DNA of 64,000 bases. Origin: Chryseobacterium gleum (lineage in GTDB: Bacteria; Bacteroidota; Bacteroidia; Flavobacteriales_D; Crocinitomicaceae). Every line of letters starts with the position of its first letter. Positions within the stretch are counted from its first letter, which is position 1. Location of the stretch: positions 62,001 through 126,000 of the forward strand of contig CAMDFX010000002.1 of the NCBI GenBank assembly GCA_945897805.1, written 5' to 3'. A model generated the notes under the pieces. The model was not told the DNA's origin and made no database searches. It saw only the letters and a list, made by a program, of their open reading frames with translations. The position numbers were made by a program, and so were the translations under genes. Below are positions 1 through 43,561 of this stretch, one piece after another.

Positions 1-2407
1 TTTGCTTTTGATAAATTGGACTTAATGGATTGAAAAGATCAGAAAACACGATTCTTTTGTTGGATCCGTCATTTTTGAAAATCCAGCTTGCCAATTCTAA
101 ACCTCCACTAGAAACGGCGCTGCTAATCTCGTAATCCAGCTGAACGGTGGGAGCTTGTGTAATACTCAAGGTCATTGTTTTCGACGAAAGAAATTCCGCT
201 TTGAAAGATTTTGACTCATAACTTGAACCACGCACACCATTGATTACAGTACTTTTATTTCCTTGAATTCGGCTCCAATATGTTGGATAGAAAAAATCAT
301 AAACCAAGTTTTTATGCGAATTCAAAAGCTGTTTCTGCTCGTAAGCGCATTGAATATTGAAATAATAATAGTTGGTCGACTCTGTCCAATTGTTCATCAA
401 TATTTCCTTCTTAGAAAGTGACACTTGGTTGCCATCTTTGTCGAAACACAAAGATTGTCCATTTTTTTCTAAACTGTAGTAAACTTTTTCTCCAGTCGCG
501 TCAAAGAATAAGGGAATAAAACTGGTATACGAAGTATCAATTAATACTGTCTTACTGATATTGATTACTGCCACTCGATTTGTCGTTGTAATGCCAACAT
601 ACGATGTTTTTGTGAATTGAAATAAATCACTAAAAATCGGAGGAATTTTCCAAAGATAGCTTTCATCAAGCAATCCTTTTTTGGCATTTTGTTGCACAAT
701 CATCGCTTCCCAATCGTATGACATTGCATCAAATTCAGCATCGATTCGTTGCACGCCAAGTGTATCATAAATGCGCCATTTTCCTGCTTTCGTGTGCACC
801 CAAATGCGATTTTTTGAAACCATTTGTTGATTGATTGTAGTATGAAATTCCTTGAAAAGAAACCCTTTTCTGCGGTGAATAATATTGACACCCTCTTTGG
901 TATAAACAATTGGTAAACCACCATTTTGCAAATCAATGAATTTTACTTTTTCATAAGTATTGGTGGTTTTGTCATAGATAAATCCACCCATATTTCCGCT
1001 GATGAGCAACAGATTACCATAACTTTTTGGAAGATTGTAACCGTACATTTCTTGTCGCCATATTTTCTCTGTATTATCATAAATAAGCGGGTAGTAGTTG
1101 TTTTCATATTGAAAGAGAAAAATGCTATCTAGTTGATTTTTATAAGTTACAGGTGACGCATTGAAATTTTCTTGTGCTGTTAAAAGTATGCGATTAACTG
1201 TTGGGATATTTGTATTTAAATCCTCAACGAGTAATGCTTCAAAATTACTGGTCACGAGAATGTTTGCATTGATTGCAGGAATTAAAACTTCACCTTTTCC
1301 GTTTAAAATTCCCCAACGAAAATCGTTATTTTGGCGCATTCCAAAGAAATAATACACACGGTAAGCGTCTGATGCGTAATAATTGTTTTGGGGAATACGA
1401 ATCAGTTTCGTCAAAAAAGTATCTGCTTCAATCAGTTTTTTCCCATTTAAATCAATCAAATCGTAACTATTATTTTCAGAACGGTGTCCAAAATAACGTG
1501 CTGGAGAAGCAGATTGAACTTGAGAATTTATAGGGATAATTCGCTCATAAATGGGCTCTGTAATCACTTTCCAACTGCCGTTTACAATTCCTTTTTTACC
1601 ATTTTCAGTAAAAATGAGCTGATGGTGAGAATGCAAGCAGGGCAAAGAAGTATTTGATTCATAGATGTTCCTCTCAAATTGAAACCTTGGCCAAACAATC
1701 GGTTTTCCTTCTGGATCAAAAAGTCCGAATTTGTTGTTTTTTACTACCGTAAAATTGTCACCACAAGGCATTCCGATGTCGAATGTACTATCTGAAAGCA
1801 CTTTTCCTGCATAATTAATGAAGCGTACATTTCCAGCAAGTGTAGAATTATTCACTTGTTTATCACCGACTAAAAAGATTTCTTGCTCATTGTATTTATA
1901 AAGGATAATTCCATCTATGTAAGGAATCAATAATTTGCCTTGCGTATCAAGAATGGCAGATTGATTTTTGGGTTGGGCGTTTTTAGAATAGGTGGTTTTC
2001 ACAACCAAAAAACGCTCTCGAATAATTTGTTGTATGGAGCTAAATTCCTGCGGTAGAATCCAGGTTTTGTTGGTGTCCATGATTCCCATTAAAGTTTGGC
2101 TTACATTGTCATCCACCTTTTTGGTGACGAGCACAAAACGATCCGCACGTAATTGATAAATTTGATCGTATTTTGTGTCAACGAATGTTTTACCGTATCT
2201 ATTTAAAATCCCCCATTTTTCGCCTGTTTTGCAGGAAAAAAACCCATTTGCATTCAATTGTATATCTTGATATTGAGCAGGCACAACCCATTTTTTGTCT
2301 GCGTTTTTCAAGCCATAAGCACAAGCAATAGGGTCACGAACAACTTGAAGTTGCGCAAAACACAATGAATTCAGCAAGAGGAAAAAAATAAAGCACGTTT
2401 TTTTCAT
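1..2407 (-). CDS. WG-repeat secreted protein, 3' end cut by window edge
   Basis: This is an uninterrupted reading frame of about 802 codons from an ATG at 2407 that runs off the left edge, so the C-terminus is missing. It starts with a signal peptide (MKKTCFIFFLLLNSLCFAQ). Degenerate WG-type repeats follow, recognisable by units such as KKWVVPAQY, EKWGILNRYG, NKFGLFDPEGKPIVWPRF and FRWGILNGKGEVLIP. The last ~130 visible residues no longer look like WG repeats. They resemble the DUF3298/PdaC style (a strand-rich segment ending in IVFSDLFNP), but that is only a resemblance. WG-repeat proteins are beta-rich, common in Bacteroidota and without a general function. It is probably exported to the periplasm or outer membrane. 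It is divergent from the ATPase locus to its right. Confidence 0.8.
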   Translation of the reverse strand, partial: MKKTCFIFFLLLNSLCFAQLQVVRDPIACAYGLKNADKKWVVPAQYQDIQLNANGFFSCKTGEKWGILNRYGKTFVDTKYDQIYQLRADRFVLVTKKVDDNVSQTLMGIMDTNKTWILPQEFSSIQQIIRERFLVVKTTYSKNAQPKNQSAILDTQGKLLIPYIDGIILYKYNEQEIFLVGDKQVNNSTLAGNVRFINYAGKVLSDSTFDIGMPCGDNFTVVKNNKFGLFDPEGKPIVWPRFQFERNIYESNTSLPCLHSHHQLIFTENGKKGIVNGSWKVITEPIYERIIPINSQVQSASPARYFGHRSENNSYDLIDLNGKKLIEADTFLTKLIRIPQNNYYASDAYRVYYFFGMRQNNDFRWGILNGKGEVLIPAINANILVTSNFEALLVEDLNTNIPTVNRILLTAQENFNASPVTYKNQLDSIFLFQYENNYYPLIYDNTEKIWRQEMYGYNLPKSYGNLLLISGNMGGFIYDKTTNTYEKVKFIDLQNGGLPIVYTKEGVNIIHRRKGFLFKEFHTTINQQMVSKNRIWVHTKAGKWRIYDTLGVQRIDAEFDAMSYDWEAMIVQQNAKKGLLDESYLWKIPPIFSDLFQFTKTSYVGITTTNRVAVINISKTVLIDTSYTSFIPLFFDATGEKVYYSLEKNGQSLCFDKDGNQVSLSKKEILMNNWTESTNYYYFNIQCAYEQKQLLNSHKNLVYDFFYPTYWSRIQGNKSTVINGVRGSSYESKSFKAEFLSSKTMTLSITQAPTVQLDYEISSAVSSGGLELASWIFKNDGSNKRIVFSDLFNPLSPIYQKQ

Positions 2408-2646
2408 ATTCAAAAGTAAGTATCCTTTTTTGATGACAATGTTAACTTTTTCCTATTTAGAAAGATTATTGTCCAACTAAGATCTTTTGCTCCTTGTTCT
2501 TAATTAAAACGAACCTAATTATATCGCTATAATTGGAAATATCTATTAAAAAATCATCCATAAATCCAATTAAAAACTAAATTTTTCCGCCAAATATTAG
2601 TAAATGGAAAGCATACACCAAGCCATTCAAATGTCGTTATAAATAA

Positions 2647-2689
2647 AAACCGTGCAAATTGAAAGTCCGTCTTTCAATTTGCACGGTTT
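2647..2689. promoter_or_regulatory. Perfect 19-bp inverted repeat (copy 1)
   Basis: The arms AAACCGTGCAAATTGAAAG and its exact complement are separated by a 5-nt loop (2666-2670). The palindrome lies upstream of the decayed ATPase start. There is no T-tract, and the neighbouring leftward gene starts at 2407 rather than ending here, so a terminator is unlikely. An operator or an RNA/DNA hairpin is more plausible. The second copy at 2953-2993 overlaps the -33 position of the live promoter. Confidence 0.7.
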
Positions 2690-2734
2690 GTAAAATTATT
2701 GTATCTTAATTCTTGTAAATCAACAATTAAGAAC

Positions 2735-2945
2735 ATGTATTTTCATCGACATTTAGAAGATTCTATTCGAAAACACCAACAAATCTTCCCAATTATCGCT
2801 ATTTTGGATCATTGTCAGTACGGAAAAAACGCTGATAAAACAACTGTTTTCTCACGAGACGAATTCTATTTACCTTGATTTACAGAATTTGGAAGACTTG
2901 AATAAATTGAAAGATCCTCGGTTATATTTCAATTCGAATGCGAAA
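2735..2945 (+). pseudogene. Decayed N-terminal fragment of the DUF4143-type ATPase
   Basis: From the ATG at 2735 the frame reads MYFHRHLEDSIRKHQQIFP, nearly the same as the intact gene at 3040. The Walker A region is then ruined: GPRQCGKST has become DHCQYGKNA. A deletion shifts the frame, and it stops after about 47 codons. The similarity continues out of frame to about 2945. The -7 box is also decayed (TATCTTAA at 2702-2709 against TATCTTTG in the live copy). It is a non-functional relic of the tandem duplication. Confidence 0.85.
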
Positions 2946-2952
2946 AAAAATA

Positions 2953-2993
2953 AATCGTGCAAATTGAAAGTCAGGGTTTCAATTTGCACGATT
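2953..2993. promoter_or_regulatory. 17-bp inverted repeat (copy 2) overlapping the -33 element
   Basis: The arms AATCGTGCAAATTGAAA (2953-2969) and its complement (2977-2993) flank a 7-nt loop. The right arm contains the TTTG at 2983-2986 that serves as the -33 element of the ATPase promoter. The position suggests an operator bound by a repressor, possibly autoregulatory. That role is inference; the palindrome and its position are read directly. Confidence 0.7.
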
Positions 2994-3014
2994 CGTTAAA
3001 TTATTGTATCTTTG
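2983..3014 (+). promoter_or_regulatory. Bacteroidota-type promoter of the ATPase gene
   Basis: TTTG (2983-2986), a 20-nt spacer and TATCTTTG (3007-3014) match the -33/-7 consensus known for Bacteroidota sigma-ABfr (TTG-N17-23-TAnnTTTG). Transcription should start near 3020, which places the ATG at 3040 about 20 nt downstream. This argues against an in-frame TTG at 3004 as the start, because that codon lies inside the promoter. Confidence 0.75.
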
Positions 3015-3039
3015 CTCTTGTAAATCAATAATTAAGAGC

Positions 3040-4194
3040 ATGTATTTTTATCGACATTTAGAAGATTCTATTCGCAAATATCAACAAATCTTCCCAATTA
3101 TCGCTATTTTAGGTCCTCGTCAGTGCGGAAAATCAACGCTGATTAAACAATTATTTTCCCCTGAAAAAAATTCAATTTACCTTGATTTACAGAATTTGGA
3201 AGACTTGAATAAATTGAACGATCCTCGGTTATTTTTCAATTCCAATGCACAAAAAATCATTTGTTTAGATGAAATTCAATTAATTCCTGAACTGTTTTCT
3301 GTTTTGAGAAGCGTTGTAGATGAAAATCGACAAAATGGAAGATTCATTCTACTGGGTTCAGCTTCGAGGGAATTGGTGCAACAAAGTTCAGAATCATTGG
3401 CGGGAAGAATTGGCTATCTATCGCTTACCCCTTTTCAAATCAATGAACTTCCAACAATTGACCAACAAACGTGCTGGAATCGAGGTGGCTTTCCTGATAG
3501 CGTGTTGGCTGAAAACGATGAATTTAGCGCAATTTGGCGTGAAAATTTCATCAAAACATACGTTGAAAGAGATTTACCACAATTGGGTTTTCAAATTCCA
3601 GCTTTACAACTAAGGAGATTTTTGATCATGTGTGCACACAATCAAGGACAGATTCTCAACCTAAGTAAACTGGGAAGTTCCATGAATTTAACGCATCCAA
3701 CCATCCGAAAATACATTGATATTTTTGAGCAAACATTCATCGTTCGCGCTTTGCCCCCATTCGAAATCAATGTAAAAAAACGACTCGTAAAATCCCCAAA
3801 AATATATGTCCGCGACAGTGGATTACTTCATCAATTATTGGGAATCAAAAACATGGATGCACTATTTAGTCACCCTGTTTTCGGCTCCTCTTGGGAAGGA
3901 TTTGTGATTGAACAAATTTTATCAGCGATTGACGTGCCAGCCTATTTTTATAGAACTGTCACAGGTGATGAAATGGATTTGGTATTGGATATTCATGGAA
4001 AAATAATCGCCATCGAATGCAAAGCTTCCGTTGCCCCTCAGGTCACCAAAGGATTTTACAAAGCCATTGAAGTGCTGAAACCTGTCAAAACATTTATCGT
4101 CGCGCCAATTGAAACAACCATGTATGCGCTGCAAGAAAATATATTTGTCGGGAGCATAAAAGATGTGATTTTTGAAATCGATCAAATGCTTTGA
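3040..4194 (+). CDS. AAA_14/DUF4143-type ATP-binding protein
   Basis: This 384-aa protein has an N-terminal P-loop ATPase domain with Walker A GPRQCGKST near residue 30 and a Walker B-like IICLDEIQ near residue 75. A sensor-like ILLGSASREL follows, then a wHTH-like middle (SKLGSSMNLTHPTIRKYIDIF). The C-terminal part is of the DUF4143, PD-(D/E)XK-like type (YVRDSGLLHQLLG, then DEMDLVLD and AIECKAS). The family is widespread, often duplicated and functionally undefined. Its C-terminal fold suggests a nuclease-like or DNA-binding activity. The start at 3040 is set by the promoter at 2983-3014. A more distant relative lies at 42434-43561 on the other strand. Confidence 0.85.
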   Translation: MYFYRHLEDSIRKYQQIFPIIAILGPRQCGKSTLIKQLFSPEKNSIYLDLQNLEDLNKLNDPRLFFNSNAQKIICLDEIQLIPELFSVLRSVVDENRQNGRFILLGSASRELVQQSSESLAGRIGYLSLTPFQINELPTIDQQTCWNRGGFPDSVLAENDEFSAIWRENFIKTYVERDLPQLGFQIPALQLRRFLIMCAHNQGQILNLSKLGSSMNLTHPTIRKYIDIFEQTFIVRALPPFEINVKKRLVKSPKIYVRDSGLLHQLLGIKNMDALFSHPVFGSSWEGFVIEQILSAIDVPAYFYRTVTGDEMDLVLDIHGKIIAIECKASVAPQVTKGFYKAIEVLKPVKTFIVAPIETTMYALQENIFVGSIKDVIFEIDQML

Positions 4195-4336: not shown

Positions 4337-5662
4337 ATGGCAAAAAAAGAAAAATTATTCGTGCTCGATACTTCTGTATTATTACATGACCATCAATCGA
4401 TAACCAATTTCAAAACCAACAATGTTGCCATTCCGATTACTGTTTTAGAGGAGTTGGATAAATTCAAAGTTGGAAATGACACCAAAAATTTTAGTGCCAG
4501 GGAAGTCATTCGTTTCATCGATAAATTGTCGGGAAAAGGATCGTTGCAAGAATGGATTTCACTAGGAAAAGGACTAGGAAAGTTTAAAATTACCATGGAA
4601 CAAATGCCGCTTTCTATCAATGCGGAAAAGGTTTTTTCAGCCGAAAAAAACGACCATAAAATTATCAATTCAGCGCTTTTCTTGAAAGAACAAGAAACGA
4701 ACCAAACGGTTGTTTTGGTCACAAAAGACATCAACCTACGAATCAAAGCCAAGGCTTTAGGATTGATTTCGGAAGATTATGAAACTGGCAAAGTAAGTAC
4801 TGAAAACTTAAAAGAAGCAAATTCTTCTAACATTGAAAATGTTGATTCAGAATTGATTCGGGAAGTTTTCATCAAAGGATCTATCGAAGAAAATGGTATT
4901 TTAGGCAACAAAAAAACAGTCAATGGATATTATATTTTAAAGAATGGAAAAACGTCTTCCTTGGCATTTTACAACCATCTTTCAAATAAAATTGAACGCA
5001 TTGAAAAGGAATTTGTCTACGGTATAAAACCCAAAAATGCAGAACAAGCATTTGCTTTTCACGCACTATTGAATAACGATGTAAAATTAGTCGCACTGCA
5101 AGGCGTTGCAGGAACTGGTAAAACCTTGCTTGCGCTTGCAGCTGCTTTAGAACAAAACAAGCAATTCAACCAAATAATTTTAGCCCGACCAATTGTGCCG
5201 CTATCAAACCGCGAAATAGGTTTTTTGCCCGGCGATGCAAATGAAAAAATCAGTCCTTACATGGAACCTTTGTGGGACAATTTGAAATTTATAAAATCCC
5301 AGTTTGGCGAAAATGAAAAAAAGCACAAAGCCATTCAAGAAATGCAAGATTCGGGCAAAATTGTGATTACACCTTTGGCTTTCATCCGCGGTCGCAGTCT
5401 TTCAAATATCATTTTCATTGTTGATGAAGCCCAAAACTTGACACCACATGAAGTAAAAACAATCATCACGCGCGCTGGAGAAAACACCAAGATTATTTTT
5501 ACCGGCGATGTGCACCAAATCGATTCGCCCTATTTGGATGAAAATAGCAATGGTTTGGCTTATTTGATTGACCGTTTGAAAAATCAACCACTGTTTACAA
5601 ACGTAAAATTGGAGAAAGGCGAGCGATCTGAATTGGCTAATTTAGCGAATGATCTTTTGTGA
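4337..5662 (+). CDS. PIN domain-PhoH family ATPase (YlaK-like)
   Basis: This 441-aa protein matches the usual length of the PIN-PhoH fusion found in many bacteria. The N-terminal PIN domain (about residues 1-140) begins KLFVLDTSVLLHD, with the acidic residues expected of a metal-dependent RNase fold. The C-terminal PhoH helicase-like ATPase has Walker A GVAGTGKTLL near residue 256 and Walker B IIFIVDEAQN near 358, followed by IIFTGDVHQID. Family members are thought to be RNA-unwinding or RNA-degrading proteins, and mycobacterial PhoH2 shows both activities. The ATG at 4337 is chosen over an upstream in-frame start at 4289 because homology begins at MAKKEK and the leader just before it is A-rich. 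Confidence 0.9.
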   Translation: MAKKEKLFVLDTSVLLHDHQSITNFKTNNVAIPITVLEELDKFKVGNDTKNFSAREVIRFIDKLSGKGSLQEWISLGKGLGKFKITMEQMPLSINAEKVFSAEKNDHKIINSALFLKEQETNQTVVLVTKDINLRIKAKALGLISEDYETGKVSTENLKEANSSNIENVDSELIREVFIKGSIEENGILGNKKTVNGYYILKNGKTSSLAFYNHLSNKIERIEKEFVYGIKPKNAEQAFAFHALLNNDVKLVALQGVAGTGKTLLALAAALEQNKQFNQIILARPIVPLSNREIGFLPGDANEKISPYMEPLWDNLKFIKSQFGENEKKHKAIQEMQDSGKIVITPLAFIRGRSLSNIIFIVDEAQNLTPHEVKTIITRAGENTKIIFTGDVHQIDSPYLDENSNGLAYLIDRLKNQPLFTNVKLEKGERSELANLANDLL

Positions 5663-5805: not shown

Positions 5806-6924
5806 ATGCCCAAGCCCAAATATTTGCTTTCTGAATATACTAAAAAAGAAATTTTCAAGAAAATATGTGTTCAAGTTGGGTTTCCTATTTTCACCAAATT
5901 AGATTGCAAGAAGGTCAGTGAATTAATCACAAAATCAGGCTTTTCTGGTATTTCAGAAAGTACGCTTTATCGTTTATTTCTTTGGAAGGGAAATAAAAAC
6001 ATGCCTTATTTGCACACGCTGAATACCTTGGCTGAATTTTGCGGATATGCAAGCTGGAATGATTTTGATATTCAATTACAAGAAATAGATTCCTTTGTGC
6101 TTGGGTTTGGTAAATTTCAACAATCGGATGCTTCGATAAAAAGTTTGATTACAGTCTGTATTCATGAAAATGAATTAAAGCCTTTGTGCCGTTATACAGA
6201 GCAATTTGAAACAATTGATGATTTTAAAATAAAAACAAAATTTGCAGAAGAAATTTTTAATTCAACACTTACAAATTCAAATAACGAACAGTTTTTTAAA
6301 ACTTTTCACCACTTTCCAGTCATCAGAGAATTTTACTTTGAATTATTAGCAGATCCTTCGTTTTCCATACCTAATTATGAATCTGGAATACAGTATTATT
6401 TAAAAAATATCAATCCTGAAAATTCATTGAAAGATTTGCAGGATTATATTTTTGGAAATTGTTTGCTGTTTAGGCATTATTTTTTGACAAAGAAGGTATC
6501 AAAAGCCAAAAAACTAGGGAAAATATTATTTGAAAATTTAGCGTTGACAGACCAACAACTGCAGGAAATACATGTTTTCCCCGTTGCCAGATTTTTTGCC
6601 TGTAAATTGATGTATTTAGACTCGAAAAACAACCTCCTTGAAACCTTTGACTTTATTAAAGAAATTCATGATTTTTTAGGGAAAATAATACCTGCAATTT
6701 CACTTCATGAGCAAAGAATTTTGTTTTATAATATCGGGGAAGCATACGTTTTTAATGGTATGATTTCAATGCAAGACCACGACCAATTGAAAGCGTTATT
6801 TTCCCATTTATTTGATCAACTTCCGCATCAATTGATCGATCAGAAATTAGAAAAAATCGTTCCATATTTTAATAAAAATGGTTCTTTTTACATCCATCAT
6901 TTACACAAGCTTGAACAAAATTAA
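5806..6924 (+). CDS. Putative DNA-binding regulator of a paralogous family (member A)
   Basis: This 372-aa protein has no signal peptide. The N-terminal ~90 residues carry a helix-turn-helix-like pattern: CKKVSELITKSG, then ISESTLYRLF, then the tail HTLNTLAEFCGYASWNDF. The same pattern occurs in the proteins at 15398-16639 and 19739-20998. The remaining ~280 residues are helical, TPR-like in character, and have no motif I recognise. I infer a cytoplasmic transcription regulator with a sensing C-terminal half. It is the first gene of a co-directional run and ends 61 nt before the ion-channel gene, so the two may be co-transcribed. It could instead be a structural adaptor, because DNA binding is not demonstrated. 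Confidence 0.55.
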   Translation: MPKPKYLLSEYTKKEIFKKICVQVGFPIFTKLDCKKVSELITKSGFSGISESTLYRLFLWKGNKNMPYLHTLNTLAEFCGYASWNDFDIQLQEIDSFVLGFGKFQQSDASIKSLITVCIHENELKPLCRYTEQFETIDDFKIKTKFAEEIFNSTLTNSNNEQFFKTFHHFPVIREFYFELLADPSFSIPNYESGIQYYLKNINPENSLKDLQDYIFGNCLLFRHYFLTKKVSKAKKLGKILFENLALTDQQLQEIHVFPVARFFACKLMYLDSKNNLLETFDFIKEIHDFLGKIIPAISLHEQRILFYNIGEAYVFNGMISMQDHDQLKALFSHLFDQLPHQLIDQKLEKIVPYFNKNGSFYIHHLHKLEQN

Positions 6925-42433: not shown

Positions 42434-43561
42434 TCACTTCTTTGACAAAAATCCCCAGTAGGTCGAGCGATTGAGTGCGTGAATGGAAGCTTCGGGATAG
42501 AAATTTTTGAAACTTGCAGGAAATTTGGGTTTCTTGCGTTTGTCCCAAATCGATTTATAAGCGGAAACTTTTTGATCTTTCACTTCGATAAAATCCATTT
42601 GTTGCTTGGTGTGCGTGCGCCAAAATGAATATTGACATGGATTTTCTTGCTGCTGATTCCATTTGATTCGTTCCGAAATAAGCCAATTTTTCCAAAGCAT
42701 ATCGACGTCATTTCTCAGGTCGATTTCGTTGAAATTTTTGATAATCGCATTGCGAATTCCATTGTCGACGAAATAAACACAGTGCGTCTTTTTCAATTCG
42801 TATTTATGTCCATTGTAAAACGATGGAATCTTTATCAAAATAAACGCTTTTTCAAGCAAATCGATGTAGCGTTCAACGGTTTCGTTGTCCAAGCCAGCTT
42901 TGAAGCCAATTTCGTTGTAAGAAATCGGTTCGCCAATTTGAAAGGCCAAAGCTTGCAACATTTTCAGCAATTTTGCAGCCTTGTTGATTCTTTCGTTTGG
43001 ACTCAAATTAGTGAAAATCGCATCTTCCAATAAGTTGAGCAGGAAATTTTCAGCTTCAGCGGGATTTTCAATTACTTGGGGGTAATTTCCGTAAATCAAT
43101 CGTTGCGCGATGTTTTTATCAAACTTTACAATCCCTTGCTGATTCGCCAATTCTTGAAAAAGCAACGGATAAAGACGCAATTCTAAACCTTGCATTTGCA
43201 GAACTTCGCGTAAAACTTCGTCTAAAATCAGTTCGAAAGAACAATTCAAAATCAAATTGATTGGATAATCTTTGAATAAAACTTCTTCAATAATCGTTTG
43301 TAAATGAATCAAATATTGTGCATCTTGAATGACGATGTATTTGTAGTTTTCAAAGATGGTTTTCAAACTAGCTTCCGACGGATTTTCTAGCGACTTTTTG
43401 GTTCTTTTCTGATTGGCATCCAAGTGCAAAATTGCATCAGGACTTGAAATCACGTTTTCAATCAATTGCGTTTTTCCGACACTTTTAGGTCCGAGAAGCA
43501 ATAAAATTTTGTTGTTTTCAATGTGCTGTTTTACCTTTTCTTGCAGTTGCCTTTGTATCAT
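42434..43561 (-). CDS. AAA_14/DUF4143-type ATP-binding protein, second copy
   Basis: This 375-aa protein has Walker A LLGPKSVGKTQL near residue 22, a Walker B-like YIVIQDAQYL near 75 and an ILNCSFELILDE sensor-like strand. A wHTH-like part (SYNEIGFKAGLDNETVERYI) follows, then a C-terminal nuclease-like fold (VYFVDNGIRNAIIKNF, then MDFIEVKDQKVSAYKSIW). It belongs to the same broad family as the protein at 3040 but is only distantly similar. Its Walker B carries Gln-Asp-Ala-Gln where the other has Leu-Asp-Glu-Ile, so the glutamate is missing and hydrolysis may be altered. Its stop is 25 nt from the peroxidase stop (convergent). Confidence 0.8.
   Translation of the reverse strand: MIQRQLQEKVKQHIENNKILLLLGPKSVGKTQLIENVISSPDAILHLDANQKRTKKSLENPSEASLKTIFENYKYIVIQDAQYLIHLQTIIEEVLFKDYPINLILNCSFELILDEVLREVLQMQGLELRLYPLLFQELANQQGIVKFDKNIAQRLIYGNYPQVIENPAEAENFLLNLLEDAIFTNLSPNERINKAAKLLKMLQALAFQIGEPISYNEIGFKAGLDNETVERYIDLLEKAFILIKIPSFYNGHKYELKKTHCVYFVDNGIRNAIIKNFNEIDLRNDVDMLWKNWLISERIKWNQQQENPCQYSFWRTHTKQQMDFIEVKDQKVSAYKSIWDKRKKPKFPASFKNFYPEASIHALNRSTYWGFLSKK

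Follow-up and report, generated by a model that had tools for sequence, protein, structure and literature searches.

A promoter palindrome duplicated with the 5′ end of an AAA_14-DUF4143 ATPase gene: candidate address of a mobile single-gene cassette

Genes that join an AAA_14 to a DUF4143 domain are listed by PADLOC as the phage-defence candidate PDC-S01 and are reported to be the fourth most common defence annotation in prokaryotes. PMC12988326 counts 9,986 archaeal and 29,494 bacterial PDC-S01 systems, and the ATPase plus PD-(D/E)XK make-up that it describes is shared by the gene considered here. This gene lies in a stretch of 64,000 nucleotides (hereafter the window) of an assembly deposited as Chryseobacterium gleum (GTDB family Crocinitomicaceae; GCA_945897805.1, contig CAMDFX010000002.1, positions 62,001 to 126,000, forward strand), where its 5′ end and a large palindrome at its promoter (P) are duplicated in tandem. 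In the open-access literature searched, we found no report of promoter palindromes, phased repeat arrays or cassette mobility for PDC-S01 or DUF4143, and nothing that linked DUF4143 to palindromes or dealt with PF13635; the parts of PMC12988326 and PMC13356809 that were available contain no statement on cis repeats or mobility of PDC-S01.

Two better-known kinds of element resemble the locus in part. Homing endonuclease genes consist of a single gene with a nuclease domain, found as occupied and empty alleles of one site, and one of their families (I-Ssp6803I) has the PD-(D/E)XK fold. The locus described here likewise involves a single gene with a nuclease domain and occupied and empty alleles at one site, and at some sites the gene is more alike than its neighbours. 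Unlike the target of a homing endonuclease, however, P survives beside the gene and is kept by the empty alleles, its cleavage is hypothetical, and no homing family appears among the Pfam matches of the ATPase. In REP/RAYT and IS200/IS605 elements, a single mobile gene has hairpins next to it, and others occur alone elsewhere. P resembles them in forming a potential hairpin beside a single gene and in occurring alone, but no HUH (Y1) transposase is found among the Pfam matches. REP-like dispersal within the genome was rejected, since the exact 14-mer core CGTGCAAATTGAAA is confined in this genome to the two palindromes of the window.

In our judgement, the duplicated block is probably the front end of a mobile single-gene cassette, P being the private DNA address of this ATPase lineage, recognised by the ATPase-nuclease. 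The cassette would comprise P, a promoter that uses the right arm of P as its −33 box, and the gene for the AAA_14-DUF4143 ATPase-nuclease, and in some relatives it would be closed off by a further P behind the stop codon. The ATPase would bind P through its winged helix, most likely as an oligomer, and would thereby repress its own promoter. Its PD-(D/E)XK domain would act at P-like sites, and P would be the place at which the cassette is lost, arrives or is exchanged. That the ATPase itself is the binding protein is indicated by where these sequences lie at the promoter, by their dyad symmetry and helical phasing, and by their specificity for ATPase lineages. The existence of P–gene–P and solo-P states suggests that P marks the cassette end. 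Movement may be driven by the nuclease, or may result from recombination between P copies together with plasmid transfer.

The live gene (3040–4194, forward strand) is assigned to PDC-S01 by the PADLOC profile (E 7.3e-88). It matches PF13173 (AAA_14) with 104.4 bits (cut-off 27) and PF13635 (DUF4143) with 150.9 bits (cut-off 28.1), and otherwise only two weak P-loop families in Pfam. In 29 aligned relatives, the Walker A residues G, R, Q, G, K and T, the Walker B DE and the PD-(D/E)XK set E290, D312 and E325-x-K327 (numbered without the first Met) are invariant. In an AlphaFold model (pLDDT 89.5), residues 1–267 match the archaeal AAA ATPases PABY2304 (2qen, Z 17.6, rmsd 2.6, 245 residues aligned) and SSO1545 (2fna, Z 16.3), a match that leaves out the C-terminal nuclease domain. 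The winged-helix-like segment announced by the first-pass annotation can be recognised in our reading of the modelled elements at residues 187–237. Modelled separately, the C-terminal domain (pLDDT 79.6, first 19 residues below 50) has as its top structural match a TBP-interacting protein (Z 10.6), and the best E in a Foldseek search is 1e-3. Among nucleases the Can2/Cdn1 family matches best (Z 8–9), followed by McrC (Z 7.8), VRR_NUC (7.5) and the Holliday-junction resolvase Hjc (at most 6.8), the lower of these values being middling. The protein thus has both the catalytic set and the fold (PD-(D/E)XK nuclease matches at Z 6–9) of PDC-S01, and the live gene probably encodes a DNA-cutting ATPase. 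A PHROGs search with the ATPase gave no match and NCBIfam only sub-threshold ones; against the Protein Data Bank, phmmer at 0.01 found none and a profile only P-loop stretches (best E 0.0014). Homologues (1e-60) are patchily distributed, occurring in 22 of 150 family genomes and 78 of 395 phylum genomes, the window's genome (own genome) counted, and 154 plasmid records carry relatives, every one below 60% identity.

As the first-pass annotation had proposed, the 5′ end of this gene is tandemly duplicated. Positions 2641–2949 and 2946–3256 form a 306-bp repeat of 88% identity made of two ungapped pieces, 2641–2827 with 2946–3132 (offset 305) and 2828–2949 with 3135–3256 (offset 307), each 88% identical; the change of offset corresponds to a net loss of 2 nt from the left copy at the Walker A codons. 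The right copy (2946–3256, forward strand) continues into the intact gene. The left copy (2641–2949, same strand) consists of a palindrome and a decayed 5′ end, a fossil cassette start in which, as read from the sequence, the GPRQCGKS codons are destroyed, the frame is shifted and the −7 box TATCTTTG has become TATCTTAA (2702–2709, forward strand). The decayed copy does carry the longer palindrome, again as annotated: the left one (2647–2689) has perfect 19-bp arms (2647–2665 and 2671–2689) around a 5-nt centre, and the right one (2953–2993, core TGCAAATTGAAA-N7-TTTCAATTTGCA) perfect 17-bp arms (2953–2969 and 2977–2993) around a 7-nt centre. The stretch of about 175 bp (2466–2640) that separates the left palindrome from the conserved left flank has no match at the corresponding loci of two relatives, G409 and G443 (genomes are numbered G and loci L). 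A curated RNA was rejected as an explanation, an Rfam scan of window positions 2400–3300 giving no family at gathering score and two microRNA models far below threshold.

With the close homologue from G409 as a third sequence, the left copy matches the right one at 271 of 309 sites and G409 at 260 of 309, and the right copy matches G409 at 272 of 311; outside the palindrome (256 sites), the left copy has 19 changes of its own and the right copy 5. The left copy therefore looks like a pseudogene fragment about as old as the split from G409, and the tandem duplication would have placed a second P with a dead 5′ end ahead of the live cassette. The left-specific rate (19/256) predicts 2.8 changes in the 38 arm bases, and no breaking change is seen (p ~0.06; the sequences in this and all other counts are related, and p values overstate their independence). 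By itself, the left copy hints weakly that the palindrome was kept during coding decay. The suggestion, made in the first-pass annotation, that the palindrome itself is selected or gene-converted is better served by the relatives, in which gene-less P persists at shared sites and the outer arms mostly stay complementary.

The overlap of the live palindrome with a −33 box, also noted earlier, was confirmed. TTTG (2983–2986) falls in the right arm of P and TATCTTTG (3007–3014) lies 20 nt further on, together forming what we take, from the Bacteroidota-type consensus, to be the promoter TTTG-N20-TATCTTTG (2983–3014, forward strand). This arrangement recurs: TAnnTTTG occurs at most 60 nt past the palindrome in 18 of 28 gene-bearing relatives, as against 109 of 1400 shuffles. 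Among loci that were not preselected for a palindrome, one scoring at least 12 lies within 150 bp upstream of the gene in 28 of 90 across the phylum (90 of 104 phylum places, the window gene among them) and in 18 of 29 within the family. When the upstream regions of 119 ATPase loci, the window's included, were dinucleotide-shuffled, 2 of 1190 shuffles reached this score, as did 1 of 105 other open reading frames (ORFs). By eye, many sub-threshold loci resemble degenerate dyads ending at or near the ATG. A model of these, CCNTGNAAAT-N12..25-ATTTNCANGG matched at 14 or more of 16 positions, fits 65 of 118 loci, none of 1180 shuffles and none of 590 in-gene places, figures that are descriptive only because the model was drawn by eye, partly from the tested loci. 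A dyad of the CCNTGNAAAT type was seen by eye at the ATG in five of six plasmid relatives examined (Thiothrix, Thioflavicoccus, Sphingobium, Granulicella and Emticicia), the Nitrosomonas one having none. The palindromes are moreover specific to ATPase lineages, arm similarity following protein identity (r 0.49, 0 of 2000 permutations, 44 loci, L193 and L202 having been removed by hand beforehand); G395 has three ATPases and three different palindromes. Large tandem palindromes at 31-bp spacing were also observed upstream of a DUF4143 gene in G403 (L308).

The paralogues of the ATPase are accompanied by repeats of another kind. The own genome contains 11 DUF4143 genes above cut-off and one remnant. 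Seven of the ten genes other than the live one (L091, L093, L094, L095, L096, L099 and L100) have at least 4, and up to 11, copies of a private 13-mer in the 300 bp upstream, with gaps of mostly 22–23 or 32–33 bp; the maximum is 3 copies in 42 control ORFs of the window, which include its two DUF4143 genes, and a shuffle also gave 4 copies for L095 and L100. Phased copies numbering three or more precede 40 of 73 genes, as compared with 1 of 219 shuffles and none of the 42 ORFs of the window, and all 19 genes with at least four belong to the two period classes. The 73 genes comprise the ten own paralogues and 63 of the 99 places outside the own genome, in family genomes; L277, L291, L293 and L295, already of palindrome type, and L287, a fragment, were omitted by hand. 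All 73 were evaluated in the final test, a stricter earlier version having left 36 of 63 genes unevaluated, and the periods of 21–22 and 31–32 given by the final test reflect a spacing tolerance of 1, the actual gaps being 22–23 and 32–33. An array or a palindrome precedes 48 of the 73 genes and 1 of the 42 controls, that one being the window's own ATPase. Among genes with any repeat word, to which the comparison was limited, 19 of 154 pairs from different genomes with at least 45% identity have a word in common, as do 5 of 126 at 35–45% and 21 of 1839 below; for dissimilar pairs within one genome the figure is 4 of 211. Since several close pairs have no word in common, the words turn over. 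The window holds another DUF4143 ATPase, a divergent one (42434–43561, minus strand), which has neither array nor palindrome by these tests, and on contig 16 of the own genome a DUF4143 3′ remnant is followed by a palindrome with 13-bp arms, perhaps a gene-less address (L102).

The exact P core is absent from the other 394 sampled phylum genomes, and an exact sister-type core occurs at 0–2 places per genome in 16 genomes. A scan of species contigs yielded 58 loci with 59 palindromes, 57 of which have a 7-nt centre although 2–14 nt were permitted. Judged by record title, fifty-three loci are from Bacteroidota; five are from other phyla, two of the latter (L057 and L075) sitting in simple CAAATTGC-like repeats. 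An ATPase homologue lies downstream of P in 30 loci, counting L071, whose homologue lies 295 nt away and has no more than 24% identity, and L068, where the gene is partial; P is solo in 28. Outer arm positions 1–6 are paired in 20–27 of 29 gene-bearing copies and 13–25 of 27 solo copies, with several pair types, whereas shuffled arm partners reach at most 16–23 and 16–21, respectively; position 5 in both sets and position 6 in the solo set do no better than shuffled partners. The first-pass annotation would have been refuted by a palindrome present at many unrelated genes or decaying equally in relatives. The outcome is mixed. In the own genome the exact palindrome stands at no other gene; across species P does occur at unrelated genes, though there it is either solo and rare or next to the ATPase, so it is no general host operator. 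The outer arms do change, yet mostly stay complementary in gene-bearing and gene-less copies alike. That an ordinary tandem duplication came to lie beside a functionless chance hairpin would agree with the plain 306-bp block and with the p of ~0.06 for survival of the left palindrome alone. It is contradicted by the exact core recurring beside the same gene in many genera, by the covarying outer arms and by an association far above shuffles, and we regard it as extremely improbable.

The solo copies raise another explanation, namely that P serves the cassette as an intrinsic terminator working in both directions, or as an insulator, and that solo P are terminators of neighbouring genes. The hairpins are often flanked by A and T runs, and 21 of the 28 solo P lie within 80 nt behind the 3′ end of a gene, about 7.8 being expected at random intergenic places of the same loci. 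Solo P also have more symmetric centres than gene-bearing P (52/81 versus 38/87, p 0.009), a trend shared by the longer-armed left copy of the window; symmetry and position would fit terminator use or hairpin-templated correction after gene loss. However, P stands between divergent genes at the window locus and in G443, and a terminator would have no need of a shared, lineage-specific core, yet CCNTGNAAAT half-site dyads are found at or near the ATG in many relatives. As an account of P in general, termination thus appears improbable.

Occupied and solo sites can be compared directly. Between the same two neighbours, the window has the remnant and the cassette, G409 the cassette and G443 P only, with ~70 nt between P and the right flank that have no counterpart in the ATPase gene; the sole homologue of G443 at 1e-60 is a 48% relative elsewhere in its genome. 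The gene at 5806 was taken as the right flank marker because the intervening gene (4337–5662), presumably PIN-PhoH-like by our reading and recall, has no match at 1e-60 in any of four congeners. At fourfold sites, window and G409 differ at 54 of 124 positions in the ATPase gene and at 103 of 238 and 31 of 73 in the neighbours, which argues that the gene was inherited at this locus. G443 is a near sister of G409 (46/288, 5/89 and 13/49 differences), and so it most likely lost the gene and kept P. Elsewhere, the neighbours that enclose P–gene–P in G462 and G515 enclose one P only in G509, which is very close to G515 (6/158 and 8/132 fourfold-site differences). At L051 a cassette occupies the place that P holds at L074; both flanks match, and L051 has an additional ORF to the left of P. 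The cassette of L088 sits precisely at the junction of two genes that are directly adjacent in L074 and L051. In comparisons of one flank, an asparaginyl-tRNA-synthetase-like gene is followed by a cassette in L055 and by P in L076 and L081, and behind an aspartyl-tRNA-synthetase-like gene L033 and L059 have P and L087 has P with the last 55 codons of the gene. The five neighbours scanned (L033, L059, L087, L076 and L081; that of L055 lay outside the scan) match Pfam tRNA-synt_2, and the Asp/Asn split of these class II synthetase-like genes is our own reading. A twin P after the stop codon is present at L109, L117, L118, L120, L127 and L053.

In some relatives, sequence comparison reveals horizontal exchange. 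L037 and L082 share a unit 96.6% identical from the edge of P to just past the stop codon, the flanks and P centres being different. Fourfold sites differ far less in the gene than in the neighbour for L138/L144 (4/124 versus 113/388), L140/L141 (20/111 versus 75/177) and L140/L118 (23/110 versus 64/138); L037/L047 goes in the opposite sense, with 23/156 in the gene and 0/87 in the neighbour. At L138 (G395), a ~90-bp direct repeat (3796–3887 and 5556–5651) flanks a stretch with an ORF, a palindrome and the ATPase, and G447 has a similar arrangement; in members of the genus of G395, the gene upstream at this locus had no solo P next to it.

Several observations weigh against a mobile, P-marked cassette. 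As many as 62 of the 90 phylum loci score below 12, many upstream dyads being imperfect or not found, and a downstream palindrome (score at least 12, within 100 bp of the stop codon) is present in only 8 of 116, some not of the upstream type. The window and G409 have no second P behind the gene. The window's own locus appears to record inheritance and loss only, with no signal of transfer and with G443 as a loss and not an insertion, and ordinary recombination between two P copies would convert P–gene–P into P without any protein. The pair L138/L139 is weak, the gene differing at 12/124 sites, one neighbour at 96/399 and four others at 13/90, 8/61, 18/134 and 17/114. Target-site duplications are not known, no systematic search for them having been made, and the comparison genomes are mostly fragmentary (G509 76% and G443 92% complete), so that assembly error is possible.

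Much of this would also follow if P were an autoregulatory operator of the ATPase only, the gene spreading passively by plasmids and by homologous recombination in flanks and P, and solo P being leftovers. P does sit at the promoter, the paralogues have at the same place phased repeat arrays of a kind typical of operators, the relatives in the 154 plasmid records are all below 60% identity, and the window locus shows loss, not gain. On its own, however, an operator leaves unexplained the twin P behind the stop codon, the high-identity borders at P between different flanks in L037/L082, and the gene that differs beside an unchanged adjoining neighbour in L037/L047. We therefore consider this explanation unlikely, although it is the one most to be reckoned with. 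The listing of PDC-S01 as a defence candidate, by PADLOC and in PMC12988326, and the intact nuclease residues suggest another role, in which a defence system would use P and the phased arrays as decoys or sensors, its nuclease being held at its own repeats and freed on infection. Yet nothing here ties P to phage, and some neighbours have housekeeping functions, aminoacyl-tRNA synthetases among them (5 of 34 scanned genes), which makes such a role quite improbable. A single scan of viral contigs with one pattern found no exact P core, and phage carriage of P was likewise rejected.

The cassette reading goes beyond the first-pass annotation, which stood in part: it had missed the PDC-S01 family with its intact PD-(D/E)XK motif, the mobility, the twin palindromes, the lineage-specific palindrome sequences and the paralogue arrays. 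It is tempting to speculate, though we hold this only tentatively, that PDC-S01-type genes form a superfamily of self-propagating single-gene elements. Each lineage would carry a private address at its promoter, in the form of a large dyad or of an array with a phase of some two or three helical turns, and this address would serve both as a leash, through autorepression by an oligomeric AAA nuclease, and as a docking site for homing-like spread; twin addresses would be cassette ends and solo ones empty sites. Seen as palindrome-marked mobile cassettes with their own cis repeats, PDC-S01 genes would acquire a concrete, testable DNA substrate, and such behaviour would be a reason to doubt that abundance alone means defence. 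The many natural pairs of protein and DNA address would be available for studying how binding specificity evolves. A gene that travels with its own palindrome, and can leave it behind on loss, may thus offer a new handle on a very common candidate anti-phage gene.
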